The notes beneath the pieces were generated by a model, which saw only the letters and a list, made by a program, of their open reading frames with translations, searched no databases and had not been told where the DNA came from. 64,000 nt of DNA, from NCBI RefSeq assembly GCF_000230715.2, contig NC_019792.1, forward strand, positions 62,001 through 126,000, written 5' to 3'. The number at the start of each line of letters is the position of its first letter. The first letter of the stretch is position 1. The translations under genes were made by a program, and so were the position numbers. Shown one piece after another: positions 27,205 through 36,421 of the stretch. This DNA comes from Natronobacterium gregoryi SP2. Lineage in GTDB: Archaea; Halobacteriota; Halobacteria; Halobacteriales; Natrialbaceae.

Positions 27205-27510
27205 ACTGACCGTACTCGGAGACAGCGGGTCAAGCTTTCGAGTCGCCGGTGGTCGTGCGGTCGGGCGCTCCCTCGAGACGTCTACCTGTCCGAAGCTGTG
27301 GACGGCTCGAGCGGGACATCGACGGCTGACCGTGACCACGACGGGCTTGCCTCTCGAATTACTCGGCTGACAGCACGGCCAACTACAGAGTAGCGGACAC
27401 GAGTATCGCAAGCACCAGTCGTGATTCGTAACCTGTGTCGGAGTTAGACAGACCTAATCCCAAATTTCATCAAGGCAAACTTATTGTATACCACCGAAAA
27501 ATACCCGTCG
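27205..27510. other. Divergent promoter region of dphB and the metal regulator
   Basis: No gene. It carries the metal-box 27444-27457 and an AT-rich TATA candidate (about 27478-27487) 25-30 bases before the regulator's ATG. Confidence 0.6.
27444..27457. promoter_or_regulatory. Metal box 1 (TTAGACAGACCTAA), own regulator
   Basis: First of five matches in the window to TTAG-N6-CTAA. It lies 53 bases before the ATG of the DtxR-type regulator and about 20-25 bases before its TATA candidate, so it probably mediates autoregulation. Confidence 0.65.
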
Positions 27511-28191
27511 ATGGATCTCAGTCCCATCGCGGAGGACTACCTCACGGTCATCTACCGCCTCGAGAGCGAGCACGGACGGCCGGTTCGAACCGCCGAAATC
27601 GGTGACGAAATTGGCGTGACAGCCCCGTCGGTAACGAGCATGCTCGACAACCTAAACGAGGAAGGGTTGGTCGACTACACGCCCTACGAGGGGGTCGAAC
27701 TGACCGAAGAGGGGGAACTGGTCGTTCGTCGGCTGATCAGGAATCATCGACTGCTCGAGACGTTTCTGACCGACCACCTCGGCTACGACTGGACCGAGGT
27801 CCACGAGGAGGCCGACCGCCTCGAACACCACGTCAGCGACGAACTGGCCCGCCGGCTTTCGGCGTTTCTGGGTGATCCGGCGACCGATTCCCACGGAGAT
27901 CCGATCCCGAACGCGGATTTGACGATGCCCGAGGAAACGCCGTACACGCCGCTTTCCGAGTGTGAGGCCGGTGAGACTGTCGTCGTCGAGCAGGTACCAC
28001 ATCGGGACCCAGACGTTCGGGAGTTTCTCTCGGATGCTGGCGTTGGGCCCGGGACAAGGATAACGATCGACGACGTGCCACCGGTTGATCTGCTCATCGT
28101 CGAACTCGAGTCCGAGGGTCACACGGTGACGTTACCGATACGCGTTGCACGCCGTATCGGAACTCGGTCTGTGGATGATAGAGTTTATTAG
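27511..28191 (+). CDS. DtxR/MntR-family metal-dependent regulator
   Basis: A 226-residue dimeric repressor that senses a divalent metal. Residues 1-65 are a winged helix (AEDYLTVIYRLESEHGRPV, VTAPSVTSMLDNLNEEGLV). Residues 66-140 are the metal-binding/dimer domain, with RNHRLLETFLTDHLG and EEADRLEHHVSDELARRL supplying Glu/His/Asp ligands. Residues 155-220 are an SH3-like FeoA domain. ATG 27511 matches the family N-terminus and the leaderless spacing; a TTG farther upstream is less likely. Its box recurs before the ZIP, znu and P-type ATPase genes, so it is the likely controller of this island. Whether it reads Mn, Fe or Zn is unknown. Confidence 0.88.
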   Translation: MDLSPIAEDYLTVIYRLESEHGRPVRTAEIGDEIGVTAPSVTSMLDNLNEEGLVDYTPYEGVELTEEGELVVRRLIRNHRLLETFLTDHLGYDWTEVHEEADRLEHHVSDELARRLSAFLGDPATDSHGDPIPNADLTMPEETPYTPLSECEAGETVVVEQVPHRDPDVREFLSDAGVGPGTRITIDDVPPVDLLIVELESEGHTVTLPIRVARRIGTRSVDDRVY

Positions 28192-28255: not shown

Positions 28256-28363
28256 ATGACGGGTACTTGGCTCGGTAGACGCGACTCGTCCACGAGCACG
28301 GCCGTATCGACGGTATCATCGACGAAGGAACTGCAGTCCCGAACGTTTGGGGGTGAAAACTGA
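28256..28363 (+). CDS. Possible 35-residue upstream frame coupled to the ZIP gene
   Basis: ATG frame (MTGTWLGRRDSSTSTAV...) whose TGA overlaps the ZIP ATG in the junction TGATG, the classic form for translation reinitiation. The peptide is Ser/Thr-rich and not strongly acidic. It may be a leader or chance. Confidence 0.3.
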   Translation: MTGTWLGRRDSSTSTAVSTVSSTKELQSRTFGGEN

Positions 28364-29295
28364 TGATCGGTCGGGAGTCGGTCCCACGATGGATGCTGGC
28401 GGCTGGGCCGGTCGTCGTGCTTGCCATCGTTGCAGGGCTGTTGTACTTCACCTCTCCGTTCGGGAATTTCGAGGGACTGGCCGAGGCATCGACGACTGAC
28501 GTGATGTGGATGATGACCGTTATCGGAGTCCTCGCCGGAGTGATGCCGGTGACGATCGGGATGTTGTGGTTCCCGTTTATCAAGTCGCTCGATAGCCTGT
28601 GGGTGCACGCGATGCTTGCGCTGTCGGCGGGCATCCTCGCCTTTATCGGCGTCGAGATGATCGAGGAGATGGTCGAGAACGGCGAGGCGATGGCAGCAGC
28701 CGGTGCCAGCACGGCGGAGCTCGCCGCCACCGGCGTCGCTGGAGTCGCTACTGTCGCCGGGACGTTCTACCTGATGAAGATCTTCAGCCGGTGGCGCTTG
28801 GACGCCGCGTTGGGCGAAACGAACGTCGGTCTCAAGGTGGGGTACATGATCGCGATCGGCCTCGGCCTACACAGTGTCGGTGAAGGGCTGGCGATCGGGA
28901 CCTCGTTTGCCACCGAGGCGTACTCGGCCGTGACCATCCTCGTGATCGGCTTCGTCCTCCACAACATCACAGAGGGGCTGTCGATCGTGGCTGCTCTCGC
29001 TCGTGACGTCGACCGACCACCGCTGTATCACTTCGCCGCCGTCGGCCTCCTCGCTGGCGGCCCGTTAGTGTTTGGCAGTTGGCTCGGCGTCTTTGCGTTC
29101 TCGCCGCTGATCGCGATCGTTTTCCTCGGAATCGGCGTCGGCGCGATCGTCGAAGTTATCTGGGAGGTCACGGAACTCGTCCGTTTCGATGCCCAGACAG
29201 TCGTCGGGTGGACGACCATCGTCCCCTTCGTCGCTGGCGTCGTGTTGATGTACCTCCTCGAGGAGGTACTCGTCGAGGGAATACTGCTCGCCTGA
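28363..29295 (+). CDS. ZIP-family divalent metal transporter
   Basis: Integral membrane carrier of 310 residues with about eight hydrophobic segments, predicted to take up Zn2+ or a related metal. ZIP signatures are visible in the later segments: IGLGLHSVGEGLAIGTSFAT (segment IV, with the metal-binding His and Glu) and VLHNITEGLSIVAAL (segment V, H-x3-E). Control by the DtxR-type regulator is suggested by the upstream box. Metal specificity is not evident. It could also export, but ZIP proteins normally move metal into the cytoplasm. Confidence 0.85.
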   Translation: MIGRESVPRWMLAAGPVVVLAIVAGLLYFTSPFGNFEGLAEASTTDVMWMMTVIGVLAGVMPVTIGMLWFPFIKSLDSLWVHAMLALSAGILAFIGVEMIEEMVENGEAMAAAGASTAELAATGVAGVATVAGTFYLMKIFSRWRLDAALGETNVGLKVGYMIAIGLGLHSVGEGLAIGTSFATEAYSAVTILVIGFVLHNITEGLSIVAALARDVDRPPLYHFAAVGLLAGGPLVFGSWLGVFAFSPLIAIVFLGIGVGAIVEVIWEVTELVRFDAQTVVGWTTIVPFVAGVVLMYLLEEVLVEGILLA

Positions 29296-29455: not shown

Positions 29456-29469
29456 TTAGATCTATCTAA
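29456..29469. promoter_or_regulatory. Metal box 3 (TTAGATCTATCTAA), znu operon
   Basis: Perfect extended palindrome around TTAG-N6-CTAA. It is directly followed by an AT-rich TATA candidate (ATTATTTA, 29473-29480). Binding here would block the transcription machinery, as expected for repression of metal uptake. Confidence 0.7.
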
Positions 29470-29522: not shown

Positions 29523-30500
29523 ATGAAATCTGACGAAAGCGGTTCACGTGTCGTATCACGACGGAGCTTTACCGCGCTCACCGGAGGGGCCCTTACTGCG
29601 GGGGTAGCTGGCTGTCTCGGTGACGATCCACAGGAGGATGAGGACGGGAACGGTGATGCGGAGTACACAATCTTCGCGTCGATGCCTGCCGTCTGGGACT
29701 TCGTCCGCCAGGTTGCCGGCGAGCACATGGAGGCAATCGACCTCGTCCCTGTCGGTGAACACGGCCACGACTGGACCCCAGAACCGGGGATGGTAGAGGA
29801 ACTCGACATCGCAGCCGGCTTCGTCTACCTCCGTGACTTCGCGGCCTGGCAGGACGACGCCGCAGACCAACTCGCGGAACGCGACGATGTCGTCGTGATC
29901 GAGGCGACCGAAGGGATCGAGTTCTTCGATAGTCCGGCGGAGGACGACGACGAACACTTCTGGATGGACCCGATCGCGTGCCAGGAAGGTGTTCTGAACG
30001 TCGCCGATGGCCTCGCCGAGATCGACCCCAACAACGCCGACGACTACGAGGCAAACGCCGAAGCGTTCAACGACGAACTGGAGCAACTCAACGACGATAT
30101 CCACGACATCGTCGACCGAGCGGAACTCGAGGACATCGTCCTCGCCACCCACGACTCCTTCCAGTGGTGGAACCGCCGCTACGGAATCAACATTCACTCG
30201 CCGATCGGCACCTCGCCCGACGACGCCGCCTCGGCAGCCGACGTCGAGGAAGTCGAAGAGTTGGTCGAGGATCTCGGGATCGAACACGTCTGTTACGACG
30301 TCGGTGAGCCAGCCCCGCTCGCAGAGTCACTCGCCACCGAGGTTGGCGCGGAGATTCTGCCACTCTCGCCGATCGAAACCCAGATCGACGGGAGTCCGGA
30401 GGTCGACCCAACCGTCGAGATGGAACCCGACTGGGGGTACGTCGAGCACTTCCGAGAGATCAATCTGCCGACGCTCGAGACGGCGCTCGAGGCAGAATAG
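29523..30500 (+). CDS. znuA: Metal ABC transporter substrate-binding lipoprotein
   Basis: Cluster A-1 binding protein for Zn2+ or Mn2+, 325 residues, anchored outside the membrane. The N-terminus has a twin-Arg motif (SRRSFTALTGG) and a lipobox ending AGVAGC, so Tat export with lipid attachment is likely. Conserved points are VGEHGHDWTPEPG with the first His ligand, HFWMDP with the second, and LATHDSFQWWNRRYG with the third. The acidic DDDEH loop replaces the His-rich loop of bacterial ZnuA. The start at 29523 is preferred over a TTG three bases before. It is followed by ATPase and permease genes in an operon. Confidence 0.87.
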   Translation: MKSDESGSRVVSRRSFTALTGGALTAGVAGCLGDDPQEDEDGNGDAEYTIFASMPAVWDFVRQVAGEHMEAIDLVPVGEHGHDWTPEPGMVEELDIAAGFVYLRDFAAWQDDAADQLAERDDVVVIEATEGIEFFDSPAEDDDEHFWMDPIACQEGVLNVADGLAEIDPNNADDYEANAEAFNDELEQLNDDIHDIVDRAELEDIVLATHDSFQWWNRRYGINIHSPIGTSPDDAASAADVEEVEELVEDLGIEHVCYDVGEPAPLAESLATEVGAEILPLSPIETQIDGSPEVDPTVEMEPDWGYVEHFREINLPTLETALEAE

Positions 30501-30566: not shown

Positions 30567-31319
30567 ATGACTCGTGCAATCGACGTCGAAGACGTTACGT
30601 TCGCATACGACGGCCAACCGGTGTTACGGGACGTTACCATGTCGGTCGACGAAGGTGACTTCGTCGGACTGATCGGACCGAACGGCTCGGGAAAGACGAC
30701 GCTGTTGAAGATCATGCTCGGTCTGCAGACGCCCGATTCTGGCCGCGTCGAACTGTTCGGGACGCCAGCAGCGGAGTTCTCCGAAGGGACCCGCCTCGGG
30801 TACGTCTCACAGCAATCGACCGAGGCCGAGACGATGATGCCGGTCACCGTCCGGGAAGTCGTAACGATGGGGCGGTATCCACACGCCGGCAGTCGACGAC
30901 TGACCGACGAGGACCGAGAGATCGTCGACGACGCACTCGAGCAAGTCGAGATCACCGACCTCGCTAGCCGACGGGTCAACCGCCTGTCAGGTGGGCAGCG
31001 ACAGCGAGCGTACATCGCTCGAGCACTGGCCTCCGAAGCCGACCTGCTGGCACTCGACGAACCGACCGTCGGCGTCGACGCCGATTCGGTCGACGCCTTC
31101 TACGCTCTCTTGGACGACCTCAACGATCGAGGAATCACGATCGTCCTGATCGAACACGACATCAGTGCCGTCGCCGAGCACGCGAGCACGATGGCCTGTC
31201 TCGACTGTGAGCTGTACGAGCACTGCGCGACAGACCGATTCCTCGAGAGCGATGCCCTCGAGCAGGCGTTCAGTTCGGCCCGCGTCGTCAGCTCTGCCGG
31301 GCTCGCTGCGGGTGATTGA
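30567..31319 (+). CDS. znuC: Metal ABC transporter ATP-binding protein
   Basis: ATPase of the importer, 250 residues. Walker A is GPNGSGKTTLLK near residue 35, the signature LSGGQRQRAYIARALA near 140, Walker B LLALDEPTVGVD and the switch His in IVLIEHDISAVAEH. The C-terminal Cys pairs (ACLDCELYEHC) are commonly seen in archaeal members and might bind metal. Its end overlaps the start of the permease gene. Confidence 0.9.
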   Translation: MTRAIDVEDVTFAYDGQPVLRDVTMSVDEGDFVGLIGPNGSGKTTLLKIMLGLQTPDSGRVELFGTPAAEFSEGTRLGYVSQQSTEAETMMPVTVREVVTMGRYPHAGSRRLTDEDREIVDDALEQVEITDLASRRVNRLSGGQRQRAYIARALASEADLLALDEPTVGVDADSVDAFYALLDDLNDRGITIVLIEHDISAVAEHASTMACLDCELYEHCATDRFLESDALEQAFSSARVVSSAGLAAGD

Positions 31320-32404
31320 TCGTGGCGACCGAACACGTCGGCTCGAGCTATGGTTTCCGAGAGGAGTACACGGTCGTGGGGGCTCTCGCCGCCGTGATGG
31401 TTGCCTCCGGACTGTTCATCCTGGGGTGGCTCCCGGCCCTCGCTCCCGGTGCGTGGCCAACGCTGTTCGAGCTCTCGCTTGGCGGCTGGTCGCTCGAGGT
31501 TCCGGTGCCAAGAGAGTGGTCGTTCGTGACTGTCGGTTTTCCGGAACTGTACGAAGCGTTCTGGGGGGCGACGTGTGGCGCAGTCGGGTCGTGGCTCGTC
31601 TGTAGTGGCTTCCTCCAGCGGGGATTCACCGCCGGGGTTCTCATCGGGATCACCGCACCGATCGTCGGCACTTATCTCGTCAACCGGCAGATGGCGCTGA
31701 TCGGTGAGGCACTTGCACACACGGCGTTCGGCGGCGTGGCGATCGGGCTGTTCGTCGGTGCGGCCGTGCCACGGTTCGATTATCCGCTCTTGTTCGCTCT
31801 TGTCACTGCAGCTATCGCCGCCCTGGGAATGCAGTACATCGCCGTTACAACCGACGGCTACGCCGACATTCCGATTGCGATCATGCTCACTGGTGGTTTC
31901 GCGGTCGGGATCGCCGTGATCTCCTATGGCGTCGTCTTCAGCGCGACCGTCGAGAGCTACCTGTTCGGGGACATCCTCTTCGTTCCCTTCGAGAACGTCC
32001 AGCTCATGGTCGCGCTCACGATGACCGTCGCGGCGATGGTCGCACTGACCCACAAACAGCTCCTGTTTATTACGTTCGACCGGGAAGCTGCGCGGCTCGC
32101 CCGAATCAACGTCTGGTTCTACGACACGCTGTTGATCGTACTGACGGCACTCGTCGTCGTCGCGGCGATGCAGGTCCTCGGGGCGATTCTGGTCGCCGGA
32201 ATGCTCGTCATCCCCGTCGCCGCGGCGATGCAGTTGACGACCGGCTTCAATCGCGGGCTCGTCCTCTCCGTGGTGCTCGGACAGATCGCGGTCTTCGGTG
32301 GGATCTTCCTCTCGTATTACTGGAACGTTGCGACTGGTGCGATGATCATCATCGTCGCGATCGTCCTCTACATCTGGTCGGTACTCGGAAAGCCGATCTG
32401 GTAG
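31316..32404 (+). CDS. znuB: Metal ABC transporter permease
   Basis: Membrane subunit of the importer, about 362 residues, with an extra N-terminal pair of hydrophobic segments before the ABC-3 domain (which starts near residue 85 at FLQRGFTAGVLIG). Family landmarks are LIGEALAHTAFGGVAIGLFVG, SATVESYLFGDILFV and AMQVLGAILVAGMLVIPVAAA. The start is uncertain: a TTG at 31316 would give the usual overlap with the znuC stop, and a GTG at 31322 is equally possible. Substrate as for znuA. Confidence 0.87.
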   Translation: MIVATEHVGSSYGFREEYTVVGALAAVMVASGLFILGWLPALAPGAWPTLFELSLGGWSLEVPVPREWSFVTVGFPELYEAFWGATCGAVGSWLVCSGFLQRGFTAGVLIGITAPIVGTYLVNRQMALIGEALAHTAFGGVAIGLFVGAAVPRFDYPLLFALVTAAIAALGMQYIAVTTDGYADIPIAIMLTGGFAVGIAVISYGVVFSATVESYLFGDILFVPFENVQLMVALTMTVAAMVALTHKQLLFITFDREAARLARINVWFYDTLLIVLTALVVVAAMQVLGAILVAGMLVIPVAAAMQLTTGFNRGLVLSVVLGQIAVFGGIFLSYYWNVATGAMIIIVAIVLYIWSVLGKPIW

Positions 32405-33505: not shown

Positions 33506-33519
33506 TTAGTCTGACCTAA
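33506..33519. promoter_or_regulatory. Metal box 4 (TTAGTCTGACCTAA), P-type ATPase
   Basis: Located 54 bases before the ATPase ATG and immediately before an AT-rich TATA candidate (AAAATTTATTC, about 33519-33530). The same placement is seen at znuA. Confidence 0.65.
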
Positions 33520-33572: not shown

Positions 33573-35588
33573 ATGCAACAGCCCTCGAGTCCCGAGGAGG
33601 TCGATGACGCACTCGGGACCAGAATGGATCGATCGGCGTCTCACGACGCGTCGGTAGACGGTGACGAGGCGGCTCCGGACCGGTCGACGCTCCGTCGGGA
33701 GGGGGCGTTCGTCGTTCTCACCTTCGTCGGGATGATCGGTGGACTTCTCGCTAGCTGGTTCGGTGGGCCGTCGTGGCTCGTCTGGACCTGTTATATCGGA
33801 GCCTACGTCTTCGGTGGCTGGTACGGACTCAAAGAGAGCATCGAGGCCCTTCAGGAGCCAGCCGTCGAAATCGACCTGCTGATGATCATCGCGGCACTCG
33901 GTGCGCTGACTATCGGTGCACCCTTCGAGGGAGCGATGCTTCTCTTTCTGTTCTCGCTGTCGAACGTGTTACAGCACTACGCCATCGGCCGCTCGAGGGA
34001 CGCGATCCGCTCGCTGATGCAGATGCGTCCCGAGTCCGCTCAGCTTCTCCGTGACGGAGAGGAAGTGACGGTCCCCATCGACGACGTCGAGATCGGCGAG
34101 GTGTTCGTCGTCCGCCCCGGCGATCGAATCCCGCTGGACGGCGTCGTCGACTCCGGCGAGACCACGGTCGATCAGTCCTCGTTGACCGGCGAGTCCGTCC
34201 CCGTCCCGAAAGCACCCGGCGACGAGGTGTTTGGCGGGACCATCAACGAGACCGGAAGCCTCGAGGTGCGAGTGACTCGTGAGGCCGAGGAATCTGCCAT
34301 CTCGAAGCTCATCCACATGGTCGAGGAGGCCCGAAGCGAGAAGGCCCCGACCCAGCGGCTCATCGATCGGTTGGAACAGCCGTACGTCTTGAGCGTCTTC
34401 GCTTTTACCGCAGTCGCGATCGCACTTCCGCTGGCGCTCGGTCACGAGTTCGACTCCACGTTCTACCGCGCGATGACGCTCATGGTCGCCGCCTCACCCT
34501 GTGCTGTTATCCTCTCGACGCCAGCCGCAGTGCTCTCGGCGATCACTGCCGGCGCACGTCAGGGCGTTCTGTTCAAGGGTGGCGAACACGTCGAGCGGAC
34601 CGCGACCGTCGACGCCGTCGCCTTCGACAAGACCGGCACGCTCACCGAAGGCAACACCCGACTGACCGACGTGACGACCCGTGACGGGGCGAGCCTCGAA
34701 GGTGACGACCGACTGCTCGCACTCGCCGCAGCAGTCCAGTCCCGCTCGGAGCACCACTTGGCGGAGGCGACCGTCGAGGCTGCCGAAGAGCGGGGACTCG
34801 AGACGGCCACTGCGAGTGGCTTCGAAGCCGTCGTCGGCAAAGGAGTCCACGCGACAGTCGACGAGCGGACGATCCACATCGGTAACGCCCGCTACTTCGA
34901 GACGGTGACCGACGGAGAGACGATCGCGGGACTCGAAGACGGTCTCGCGGCCGTCCGCTCGCTCGAGAACGACGGGAAGACGAGCGTGCTCGTCGCCCGC
35001 GAGGATGGGGGCGACCTCGAGGTGCTGGGCTGGCTCGCCTTTACCGATACGGTCCGTGAGACCGCCGCCGAGACGATCGAACGTCTGCGCGAGCTTGGCG
35101 TCGAACAGATCGTCATGCTGACCGGCGACAACGAGCGCGTGGCCCGATCGATCGCAGCGGAACTCGGGATCGACGAAGTGTACGCGGAGTTGCTGCCCGA
35201 GCAGAAAGTCGACCGGATCGAACGCCTCCAAAAGCGCCACGAGGCAGTGGCGATGGTCGGTGATGGCGTCAACGACGCCCCGGCGCTCGCCACGGCAGAC
35301 GTAAGCGTCGGGATGGGCGGCGCGGGGACCGACGTCGCCCTCGAGACCTCCGAGGTCGTGTTGATGTCCGACGACCTCGAGAAGTTGCCGTACGCACTCG
35401 CACTCGGCCGGGAGACGCGTAAGACCCTGTTCGTGAACCTCGCCATCGCGTTCGGGGCGATCGTGATCATGATCGTGGCGATCCTCACCGCGGGAATTCC
35501 GCTTCCGCTCGCGGTGATCGGCCACGAAGGATCGACCGTGCTGGTCTGCCTGATCGGTCTGCGACTGATCGGCTTTCAAGGAGCGTGA
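33573..35588 (+). CDS. P1B-4-type heavy-metal transporting ATPase
   Basis: Membrane pump of 671 residues. It has no N-terminal metal-binding HMA domain and starts with an acidic, disordered 45 residues. The sixth membrane segment has SPCAVILSTP, Ser-Pro-Cys instead of Cys-Pro-Cys, and the last has HEGSTVLVCLIGLRL. Together these define the P1B-4 group, which exports Co2+, Fe2+ or Zn2+. The actuator TGES is present (SSLTGESVPVPKAPG), as are the phosphorylated Asp near 352 (DKTGTLTEG) and the hinge MVGDGVNDAPALATADV. The start at 33573 is preferred over an earlier ATG because of TATA spacing. Control by a metal box suggests it balances the importers upstream. Confidence 0.88.
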   Translation: MQQPSSPEEVDDALGTRMDRSASHDASVDGDEAAPDRSTLRREGAFVVLTFVGMIGGLLASWFGGPSWLVWTCYIGAYVFGGWYGLKESIEALQEPAVEIDLLMIIAALGALTIGAPFEGAMLLFLFSLSNVLQHYAIGRSRDAIRSLMQMRPESAQLLRDGEEVTVPIDDVEIGEVFVVRPGDRIPLDGVVDSGETTVDQSSLTGESVPVPKAPGDEVFGGTINETGSLEVRVTREAEESAISKLIHMVEEARSEKAPTQRLIDRLEQPYVLSVFAFTAVAIALPLALGHEFDSTFYRAMTLMVAASPCAVILSTPAAVLSAITAGARQGVLFKGGEHVERTATVDAVAFDKTGTLTEGNTRLTDVTTRDGASLEGDDRLLALAAAVQSRSEHHLAEATVEAAEERGLETATASGFEAVVGKGVHATVDERTIHIGNARYFETVTDGETIAGLEDGLAAVRSLENDGKTSVLVAREDGGDLEVLGWLAFTDTVRETAAETIERLRELGVEQIVMLTGDNERVARSIAAELGIDEVYAELLPEQKVDRIERLQKRHEAVAMVGDGVNDAPALATADVSVGMGGAGTDVALETSEVVLMSDDLEKLPYALALGRETRKTLFVNLAIAFGAIVIMIVAILTAGIPLPLAVIGHEGSTVLVCLIGLRLIGFQGA

Positions 35589-35669
35589 TCCAGTCCGCGC
35601 CACTCACAAAGATCGAACGGAAAAGACGTATCGCTCCTAGAAAACGACGGGACAGTAGACGACCACTCA

Positions 35670-35749
35670 TACGGATTACTGTAACGATTTACCGGCGCAA
35701 CCGCCGCCCGGGTCGCGGTTGTGCCGGAACTGACGTACAGCAGTTCGTA
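35670..35749. repeat. 80-bp dispersed palindrome, copy C
   Basis: The outer arms TACGGATTACTGTA (35670-35683) and TACAGCAGTTCGTA (35736-35749) pair at 11 of 14 positions. The inner 13-bp stem joins CCGGCGCAACCGC (35692-35704) and GCGGTTGTGCCGG (35715-35727). Confidence 0.75.
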
Positions 35750-35781
35750 TCAGGAGGACAGCCGGATATCGGACACGCGAA

Positions 35782-35795
35782 TTAGATTAGGCTAA
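35782..35795. promoter_or_regulatory. Metal box 5 (TTAGATTAGGCTAA), orphan
   Basis: Matches TTAG-N6-CTAA and is followed by a TATA box (TTTTAA, 35818-35823) pointing right, yet no protein gene starts downstream on the plus strand. The box-to-TATA distance resembles that at the regulator gene. Confidence 0.6.
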
Positions 35796-35844
35796 TCTTT
35801 GAATTTGCTTACACTAATTTTAAGTAGCTGTTCGAAGTACTGCC

Positions 35845-35930
35845 AATGCGTTCCGCACGAACGGAACGCAGGTCGCCGGGTGAGCTCCTGTGGCGACCGT
35901 AAGTGGACGTGGTCAGTCCACTACCACACA
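35845..35930 (+). ncRNA. Candidate metal-regulated structured small RNA
   Basis: The predicted transcription start, about 26 bases after the TATA box at 35818-35823, falls at about 35845. From there three perfect hairpins follow one another: 35847-35870 (9-bp stem, CACGAA loop), 35871-35898 (7-bp stem GGTCGCC/GGCGACC) and 35902-35922 (7-bp stem AGTGGAC/GTCCACT). The third can instead form GTGGT/ACCAC (35909-35913 with 35923-35927). The 3' end is unknown. An 18-codon frame at 35846 exists but is Arg-rich and lies over the first two hairpins. The existence of this RNA is inference. Confidence 0.4.
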
Positions 35931-36007
35931 CTGTTAGACGACGATTCGAAGCAACAAGCCCCTGGGAGAGACGTCCCCACAAACGACCGAACGCGAACAC
36001 GCTACGA

Positions 36008-36421
36008 TCAAAACGAGATATGTGACGTCGACGACGGACCATCATCGCCGTCGTCGATCCCACCCTCGTGGAGAAACTGCACGTCGTCGTCGGTCAAGTA
36101 GACATCGCCGTCCTCGAGTTCGACTTCGACTCCCGGCAGCGTCGTGTCGGCGGCAGGGCCGTTGTCACACTTGCCCGAACAGGCGTCGAACATCGAGCCG
36201 TGTCGCGGACAGACGATTTCGGCGTTTCGAATCGGCGCGCCACGACCGGTGTCGAACGGCTGGGCCTCGTGCGTACAGCGGTTGCTCCAGGCCTCGACAC
36301 CCCCATCGCAAGGGACGACGATCACCTCTTTGCGTTCGCCGTTACGATTCCTGACCGTAAACAGCCACGACCCCTCTTCGTTGACCGTCTCGAGAGCGGT
36401 GAGTCGCATTCTGACGCCCAT
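36008..36421 (-). CDS. Rieske [2Fe-2S] protein
   Basis: A 137-residue soluble ferredoxin-like protein. The cluster motifs are CTHEAQPFDTGRG (Cys-x-His) and CPRHGSMFDACSGKC (Cys-x2-His), the pattern of Rieske-type ferredoxins that pass electrons to oxygenases or act alone. There is no membrane segment or signal peptide, so it is cytoplasmic and not part of a bc1 complex. An acidic tail follows after residue 120. A second possible start (MRLTAL) is four codons in. The partner enzyme is not in the neighbourhood; the divergent gene is trm5. Confidence 0.85.
   Translation of the reverse strand: MGVRMRLTALETVNEEGSWLFTVRNRNGERKEVIVVPCDGGVEAWSNRCTHEAQPFDTGRGAPIRNAEIVCPRHGSMFDACSGKCDNGPAADTTLPGVEVELEDGDVYLTDDDVQFLHEGGIDDGDDGPSSTSHISF

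Follow-up and report, generated by a model that had tools for sequence, protein, structure and literature searches.

What does a predicted metal-repressor operator control when no protein gene lies behind it? The question arises at 35782-35795 on the forward strand of the window (the whole 64,000-nucleotide stretch of Natronobacterium gregoryi SP2 analysed here), where inspection of the sequence reveals an exact inverted-repeat TTAG-N6-CTAA box, TTAGATTAGGCTAA. It is the last of five exact boxes in the window (27444, 28188, 29456, 33506 and 35782); allowing up to one mismatch gives 11 matches against 2.45 expected, a count reached by none of 100 shuffles. A first-pass annotation had proposed that through this fifth box a metal regulator controls a small RNA, which would be the archaeal equivalent of bacterial RNAs that respond to iron. 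Conservation of the box, of its TATA spacing and of the RNA stems supports that proposal, which is further strengthened because the predicted target, superoxide dismutase (SOD), is of the same kind as in bacteria. We consider it likely that the locus encodes a metal-repressor-controlled small RNA that pairs with the start of the sod mRNA and blocks SOD translation under metal shortage, a form of metal sparing.

A metal-uptake cluster and its predicted operators

The remaining four exact boxes had been said to precede genes for metal transport or its regulation, and this is what the protein domains show: the box at 27444 precedes a DtxR-family gene, 28188 a ZIP-like gene, 29456 znuA and 33506 a P1B ATPase gene. 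The operator type is common to the metal transport and regulator genes of the cluster, which itself encodes a DtxR-family regulator with a FeoA domain. The protein-coding features are:

27511..28188, + strand: DtxR-family metal-dependent repressor with FeoA domain, likely the regulator (Pfam Fe_dep_repr_C 2.8e-31, Fe_dep_repress 2.2e-16, FeoA 8.4e-12; own box at 27444)
28363..29295, + strand: putative ZIP-like metal transporter (weak Pfam Zip match, below cut-off; box at 28188)
29526..30500, + strand: ZnuA-family metal-binding lipoprotein (Pfam ZnuA 6.1e-49; box at 29456)
30567..31319, + strand: ABC transporter ATPase, ZnuC/MntB type (Pfam ABC_tran)
31367..32404, + strand: ABC-3 family metal permease, ZnuB/MntC type (Pfam ABC-3 4.6e-58)
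33576..35588, + strand: P1B-type metal ATPase, optional neighbour of the RNA (Pfam E1-E2_ATPase; box at 33506-33519)

The order is DtxR-family repressor, weak ZIP-like protein, ZnuA, ABC ATPase, ABC-3 permease, DUF7260 protein, P1B ATPase and then the RNA, beyond which lie convergent Rieske and Trm5-like genes. The earlier statement that no protein gene follows the fifth box stands: the P1B ATPase gene stops at 35588, on the minus strand the Rieske gene runs convergently, and no frame is consistently conserved among the homologues. A riboswitch was considered and rejected, there being no same-direction gene directly downstream in the window. The P1B ATPase is missing from many RNA-bearing loci, and as a synteny anchor it returned mostly bacterial matches. 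ATPases of this type are normally exporters; this one shares its box type with the uptake genes.

Positions 35665-35753 hold a near-palindromic dispersed repeat of ~88 bases (ATACGGATTACTGTAACG...CGTAT), with at least 10 further copies in the window genome at 88-93% identity and copies in about 25 other genomes of the family. Outside the window, the same genome (G000) carries 18 further TTAG-N6-CTAA sites, mostly of the form TTAGG-N4-CCTAA, which may serve a second DtxR-family regulator, one for iron, and be distinct from the TTAGA/T boxes of the metal cluster.

A structured RNA family with a predicted promoter of its own

Downstream of the fifth box the TATA element placed at 35818-35823 by the first-pass annotation is present as TTTTAA, and its spacing leads us to expect an RNA start near 35845. 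The imperfect second box might allow cooperative repressor binding. The features of the RNA gene are:

35782..35795, + strand: predicted metal-repressor (DtxR-family type) operator of the small-RNA promoter (exact inverted repeat; box kept upstream of homologous RNAs)
35804..35817, + strand: imperfect second box TTTGCTTACACTAA, 22 bases past the first (one-mismatch match; similar second half-box in several homologues)
35818..35823, + strand: TATA-like element TTTTAA (sequence; most homologues have a TATA-like element aligned at equal distance)
35840..35929, + strand: small RNA gene, model match (R1 and R2 searches; R3 model E 1.1e-7 at C1:97840-97929 in its own genome, for a copy that belongs to the model's training set)
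35847..35870, + strand: hairpin 1, TGCGTTCCG-CACGAA-CGGAACGCA (fold; family helix 1 with 98.5% of cells paired and both-side changes in 6 of 9 pairs)
35871..35898, + strand: hairpin 2 with apical motif CRGG-TGAGYT-CCTG at 35877-35890 (fold, conservation)
35902..35922, + strand: hairpin 3, carrier of the antisense loop (fold; both-side changes in 7 of 9 pairs of the corresponding helix in the family)
35908..35918, + strand: predicted antisense segment CGTGGTCAGTC, complement of sod mRNA GACTGACCACG between the G of the AUG and the beginning of codon 5 (complementarity search)

The three hairpins had been called at these same positions beforehand, and folding bears them out. The 86 nt from 35845 to 35930 fold at -43.2 kcal/mol, compared with -29.2 +/- 3.3 for dinucleotide shuffles (z -4.18), and none of 200 shuffles is as stable, so the hairpins exceed chance. 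It had also been suggested that hairpin 3 switches between two folds by way of a competing stem (35909-35913 with 35923-35927); that stem exists in the window, but inspection finds it without a counterpart in such homologues as G003 and G088, and a conserved switch is therefore unsupported. No terminator was identified for the RNA gene. Rfam covariance models gave nothing up to E 1 in 35770-36010, and at gathering thresholds their sole match in the whole window is a tRNA; the RNA represents a new family.

A sensitive DNA search matched two genomes of the same genus, G003 at 71% and G004 in part. The first alignment combined the window copy with those of G003, G004 and G025 and with two found after the P1B ATPase (G135, G020), and revealed two conserved motifs, CAGG-TGAGYT-CCTG and CGTGGTCAG. 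The family was assembled by pattern search and then by three successive covariance models, which place the RNA in 23 of 125 genomes of the family and in 4 more distant haloarchaea of the wider order (G392, G321 and G288 of family f5, G253 of f4); strict filtering makes both counts minimum figures. Four hairpins are present in most members. The window copy is a short variant with three and, like its counterparts in the genus mates G003 and G004, is without the second one.

The original annotation had been made to depend on conservation of box and stems in close relatives, with covariation named as a check; box, TATA spacing and stems are conserved, and the stems covary. When 24 copies are aligned by fitting to the model, 92.8% of cells are paired, against 31-50% in slid-partner controls, and both-side changes occur in 19 of 29 pairs, against 8.3 in shuffles. 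Because model fit favours structure, an unfitted alignment of 7 sequences was also counted: here 94.4% of cells are paired, 4 pairs show double changes and the covariation score is reached by 1 of 500 shuffles, a weaker signal than that of the fitted alignment. With covarying stems and no conserved reading frame, this is a structured non-coding RNA.

The same data bear on an alternative reading, in which the transcript is a metal-regulated message encoding a very small protein, such as one in the frame GTG AGY TCC TGY (M-S-S-C...). The string GTG/ATG-AGY-TCC-TGY is indeed preserved in most copies, with synonymous changes. However, the frame stops after VSSCG in G004, and it is interrupted in G023 and G136 (by GTGATGCTCC) as well as in G126 (by GTGAACCGC); its remainder is not conserved, similarity extends over several frames at once, and the covariation of the stems also speaks against a coding role. 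With the frame broken in several homologues we rejected the M-S-S-C protein, and a small-protein mRNA of any kind seems very improbable.

A box with at most one mismatch lies upstream of the RNA in all 27 RNA-bearing genomes, at -56 to -59 from the model start except in G017, where it is at -88 because the model misses the first hairpin of that RNA. The covariance models contained no promoter sequence, and the box was no part of them. A TATA-like element follows at matching distance in most homologues. No box was found beside pattern matches outside the family, which fall in coding DNA, or beside weaker covariance-model matches judged spurious. Read from sequence, then, a predicted metal-repressor operator is conserved at the RNA promoter, a defining feature of the class of metal-sparing SOD RNAs.

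All 23 copies within the family lie within 10 kb of a dtxR/znuABC-type cluster, in several arrangements, usually 0.2-0.45 kb past the permease gene. In G126, G127 and G129 the RNA and the ABC genes are divergent, and in G132, G017 and G099 the RNA is found next to dtxR. Such variation within 10 kb marks the RNA as a unit of its own that travels with the cluster. It bears as well on whether the locus is a leftover promoter followed by chance hairpins, or the 3' untranslated region of an upstream gene. Hairpins are common in GC-rich intergenic DNA and the RNA directly follows the permease gene in many genomes, as such a reading would have it; against this, the box-TATA-RNA architecture is conserved and the stems covary, and the divergent copies in G126, G127 and G129 and those by dtxR in G132 and G017 untie the RNA from any one upstream gene. 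Conservation largely refutes this reading, which we regard as extremely improbable. In G133 a tandem second copy of the RNA gene (L204 1181-1330; G133:C2:78103-78252, minus strand) has its own imperfect box and an altered hairpin-3 region.

Complementarity of the hairpin-3 loop to the start of sod

The conserved loop of hairpin 3, at 35908-35918 of the window (CGUGGUCAGUC), complements codons 1-5 of sod. In the window genome this gene lies outside the window, at G000:C1:2508631-2509230, and its product is an Fe/Mn superoxide dismutase by Pfam (Sod_Fe_N/Sod_Fe_C), with which PDB relatives agree. The exact 11-mer CTGACCACGAA occurs once in that genome, at the sod start codon. When this loop complement was searched in 12 RNA-bearing genomes and 40 non-self sites were read out, no gene but sod recurred, apart from pairs and one repeated element: the site ATG ACT GAC CAC GAA (MTDHELPPLPY...) was read out in 8 genomes, and sod coordinates place the site at the sod start in the remaining four as well, which makes this the only gene start matched in all 12.

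Each whole RNA was scored for uninterrupted pairing with sod positions -15..+25 and compared with dinucleotide-shuffled RNAs, since duplex free energies with long interior loops separated cognate from non-cognate pairs poorly. For 25 of the 27 genomes, the best run lies between the hairpin-3 region and the sod start and covers 9-18 uninterrupted nt, within codons 1-8 (in G096, -6..+6). Of every 1000 shuffled RNAs, 0-9 reach the observed value in 24 of these genomes; in G129, which is marginal, 45 do. The two exceptions are G017, with 8 nt at codons 3-5 (147 per 1000 shuffles), and G099, with no convincing sod pairing (419 per 1000). Ranked among ATG windows near the RNA, the sod window does well in most genomes, not all; in G025 and G129 it ranks badly because the model match ended before the loop. 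For the window copy the run is 11 nt, partly inside the hairpin-3 stem, and because a match of that length to some gene start is expected by chance in a single genome, the argument rests on recurrence and co-variation.

Co-variation is evident at the third sod codon, which is GAC in 15 genomes whose loop reads TGGTCA and GAT in four (G025, G126, G127, G129) whose loop reads TGATCA, a synonymous change in sod that is matched in the RNA. G025 is not grouped with the other three on a rough SOD tree, used only for its placement and including two mis-cut sequences (G004, G023). The codon is GAT in G024 too, where pairing takes the shifted register TCACGAACTTCC. In the f5 genomes G392 and G321, sod starts such as ATGAGCTACGAACTCGACC face the RNA segment GGTCGAGTTCGTAGTTCA over 17-18 bp including G-U pairs, and in G253 ATGCCCGAGCAC and GTGCTCGGGT form 10 bp. 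A matrix of the groups shows that each divergent group's RNAs have their best pairing with the sod starts of that group or with others much like them, and that pairing with the remaining starts is poor. Kinship among most of the 27 genomes means that they do not count as independent trials; the argument rests on separate lineages sharing gene, codons and hairpin. Judged by these alignments, complementarity to the SOD translation start is conserved, with co-variation, in the 25 genomes.

Could sod nevertheless not be the (main) target of a DtxR-controlled structured RNA, with its loops binding a protein or other mRNAs, or regulating the transporter cluster? The hairpin-2 motif CRGG-UGAGYU-CCUG equals the sod-pairing loop in conservation without an evident sod partner, the complement of the motif falls at the start of a small MKKQELIHLHGLL protein in four of 12 genomes (G000, G004, G020, G096), and the RNA is always near the znu cluster. 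However, complements of the motif are no commoner than those of a reversed-pattern control and mostly fall on QEL codons inside genes; hairpin 2, viewed as a second antisense arm, has recurrent start-codon sites only at the MKKQELIHLHGLL protein and at an acyl-CoA-dehydrogenase-like start, the latter in two genomes. Nor do the genes of the RNA's own cluster show consistent complementarity to it, and an antisense role against znu was rejected, no consistent site being found in 23 neighbourhoods. Such a reading would leave unexplained both the recurrence of the sod start and the matched loop and codon changes across genera and families, and we think it unlikely.

Proposed mechanism and comparison with known systems

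We propose that 35840-35929 encodes a structured small RNA that acts in trans on sod and belongs to the metal-uptake regulon. When the cognate metal is plentiful, the cluster's DtxR-family repressor would occupy the TTAG-N6-CTAA box and keep the promoter off. In metal shortage the box would be freed and an RNA of roughly 85-135 nt would be made from a start near 35845. The hairpin-3 loop, complementary to the AUG and first codons of the sod mRNA and co-varying with them, is predicted to base-pair there, and pairing would block translation of the Fe/Mn superoxide dismutase. Because its most conserved loop complements the sod start codon, the RNA probably keeps the cell from spending scarce metal on this enzyme.

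DtxR-family regulators sense manganese or iron, and haloarchaeal SOD is regarded as Mn-dependent. Together with the precedent of Halobacterium SirR, which represses an ABC importer of this kind in an Mn(II)-dependent manner (PMC3600143), this makes manganese the most likely cognate metal by inference, zinc or iron being possible.

MntR of Staphylococcus aureus belongs to the DtxR family. It controls RsaC, an RNA from the mntABC 3' UTR that represses translation of the Mn-dependent SodA in manganese starvation (PMC9266662, PMC9438474). Both systems join a metal-uptake ABC operon, a DtxR-family regulator and an associated RNA with a sod mRNA as target, here a predicted one. Unlike RsaC, which spans 584-1116 nt and is cut by RNase III from the mntABC 3' UTR, the archaeal RNA would be about 85-135 nt long with an operator and TATA element of its own; it often follows the permease gene, yet keeps its box and TATA-like element and is divergent in G126, G127 and G129. 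Relatedness in sequence is not expected.

RyhB of Escherichia coli (Fur-sodB) and PrrF/BrrF are metal-sparing small RNAs under metal repressors that target SOD mRNAs, and the RyhB and PrrF genes are directly preceded by the operator (PMC7377471, PMC3919588). The archaeal RNA resembles them in the predicted metal-repressor operator before a small RNA and in its predicted sod target. RyhB is Hfq-dependent and included in Rfam; it is bacterial and works with Fur and iron, whereas the archaeal RNA matches nothing in the Rfam library and would work with a DtxR-type repressor and, probably, manganese. In Streptomyces coelicolor, Nur acts through s-SodF, an RNA with an antisense stem-loop against SOD mRNA (PMC3919588); s-SodF differs from the archaeal RNA in being processed from the sodF 3' UTR, targeting sodN and responding to nickel. 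A haloarchaeal small RNA, s479 of Haloferax volcanii, is tied to ZnuABC: it lies between CRISPR and cas genes, is processed by Cas6 with a crRNA-like handle, and lowers znu expression (PMC8155600). The present RNA, unlike s479, lies in a metal cluster and has predicted pairing with sod and no consistent pairing with znu, and we rejected a Cas6-processed RNA of the s479 type on these grounds.

Archaeal small-RNA targets are, to our knowledge, mostly unknown; nor are we aware of a published case in Archaea of a small RNA that is controlled by a metal repressor and targets a metalloenzyme, and a literature search, short on subscription papers, found none. On present evidence the nearest system in its working appears to be S. 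aureus RsaC, with RyhB-sodB as the iron version; we assign the archaeal RNA to neither, because it has its own predicted operator and promoter, probably differs in size and processing, and belongs to another domain of life. Somewhat short of an even chance, we tentatively suggest that DtxR-type repressor, Mn/Zn-type ABC importer and anti-sod RNA form a conserved haloarchaeal module, independent of RsaC and RyhB, whose second loop (CRGG-UGAGYU-CCUG) serves further targets or a protein partner and makes the RNA a multi-target regulator. Haloarchaea are known for their tolerance of oxidative stress, and the proposed RNA, if real, would link that tolerance to metal supply. Target, paired bases and natural compensatory changes are all specified, so that one mutant series would suffice as a test. 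If the proposal is true, the Staphylococcus-like logic of DtxR-family regulator, metal ABC importer and anti-SOD RNA would be a striking case of convergence across domains.
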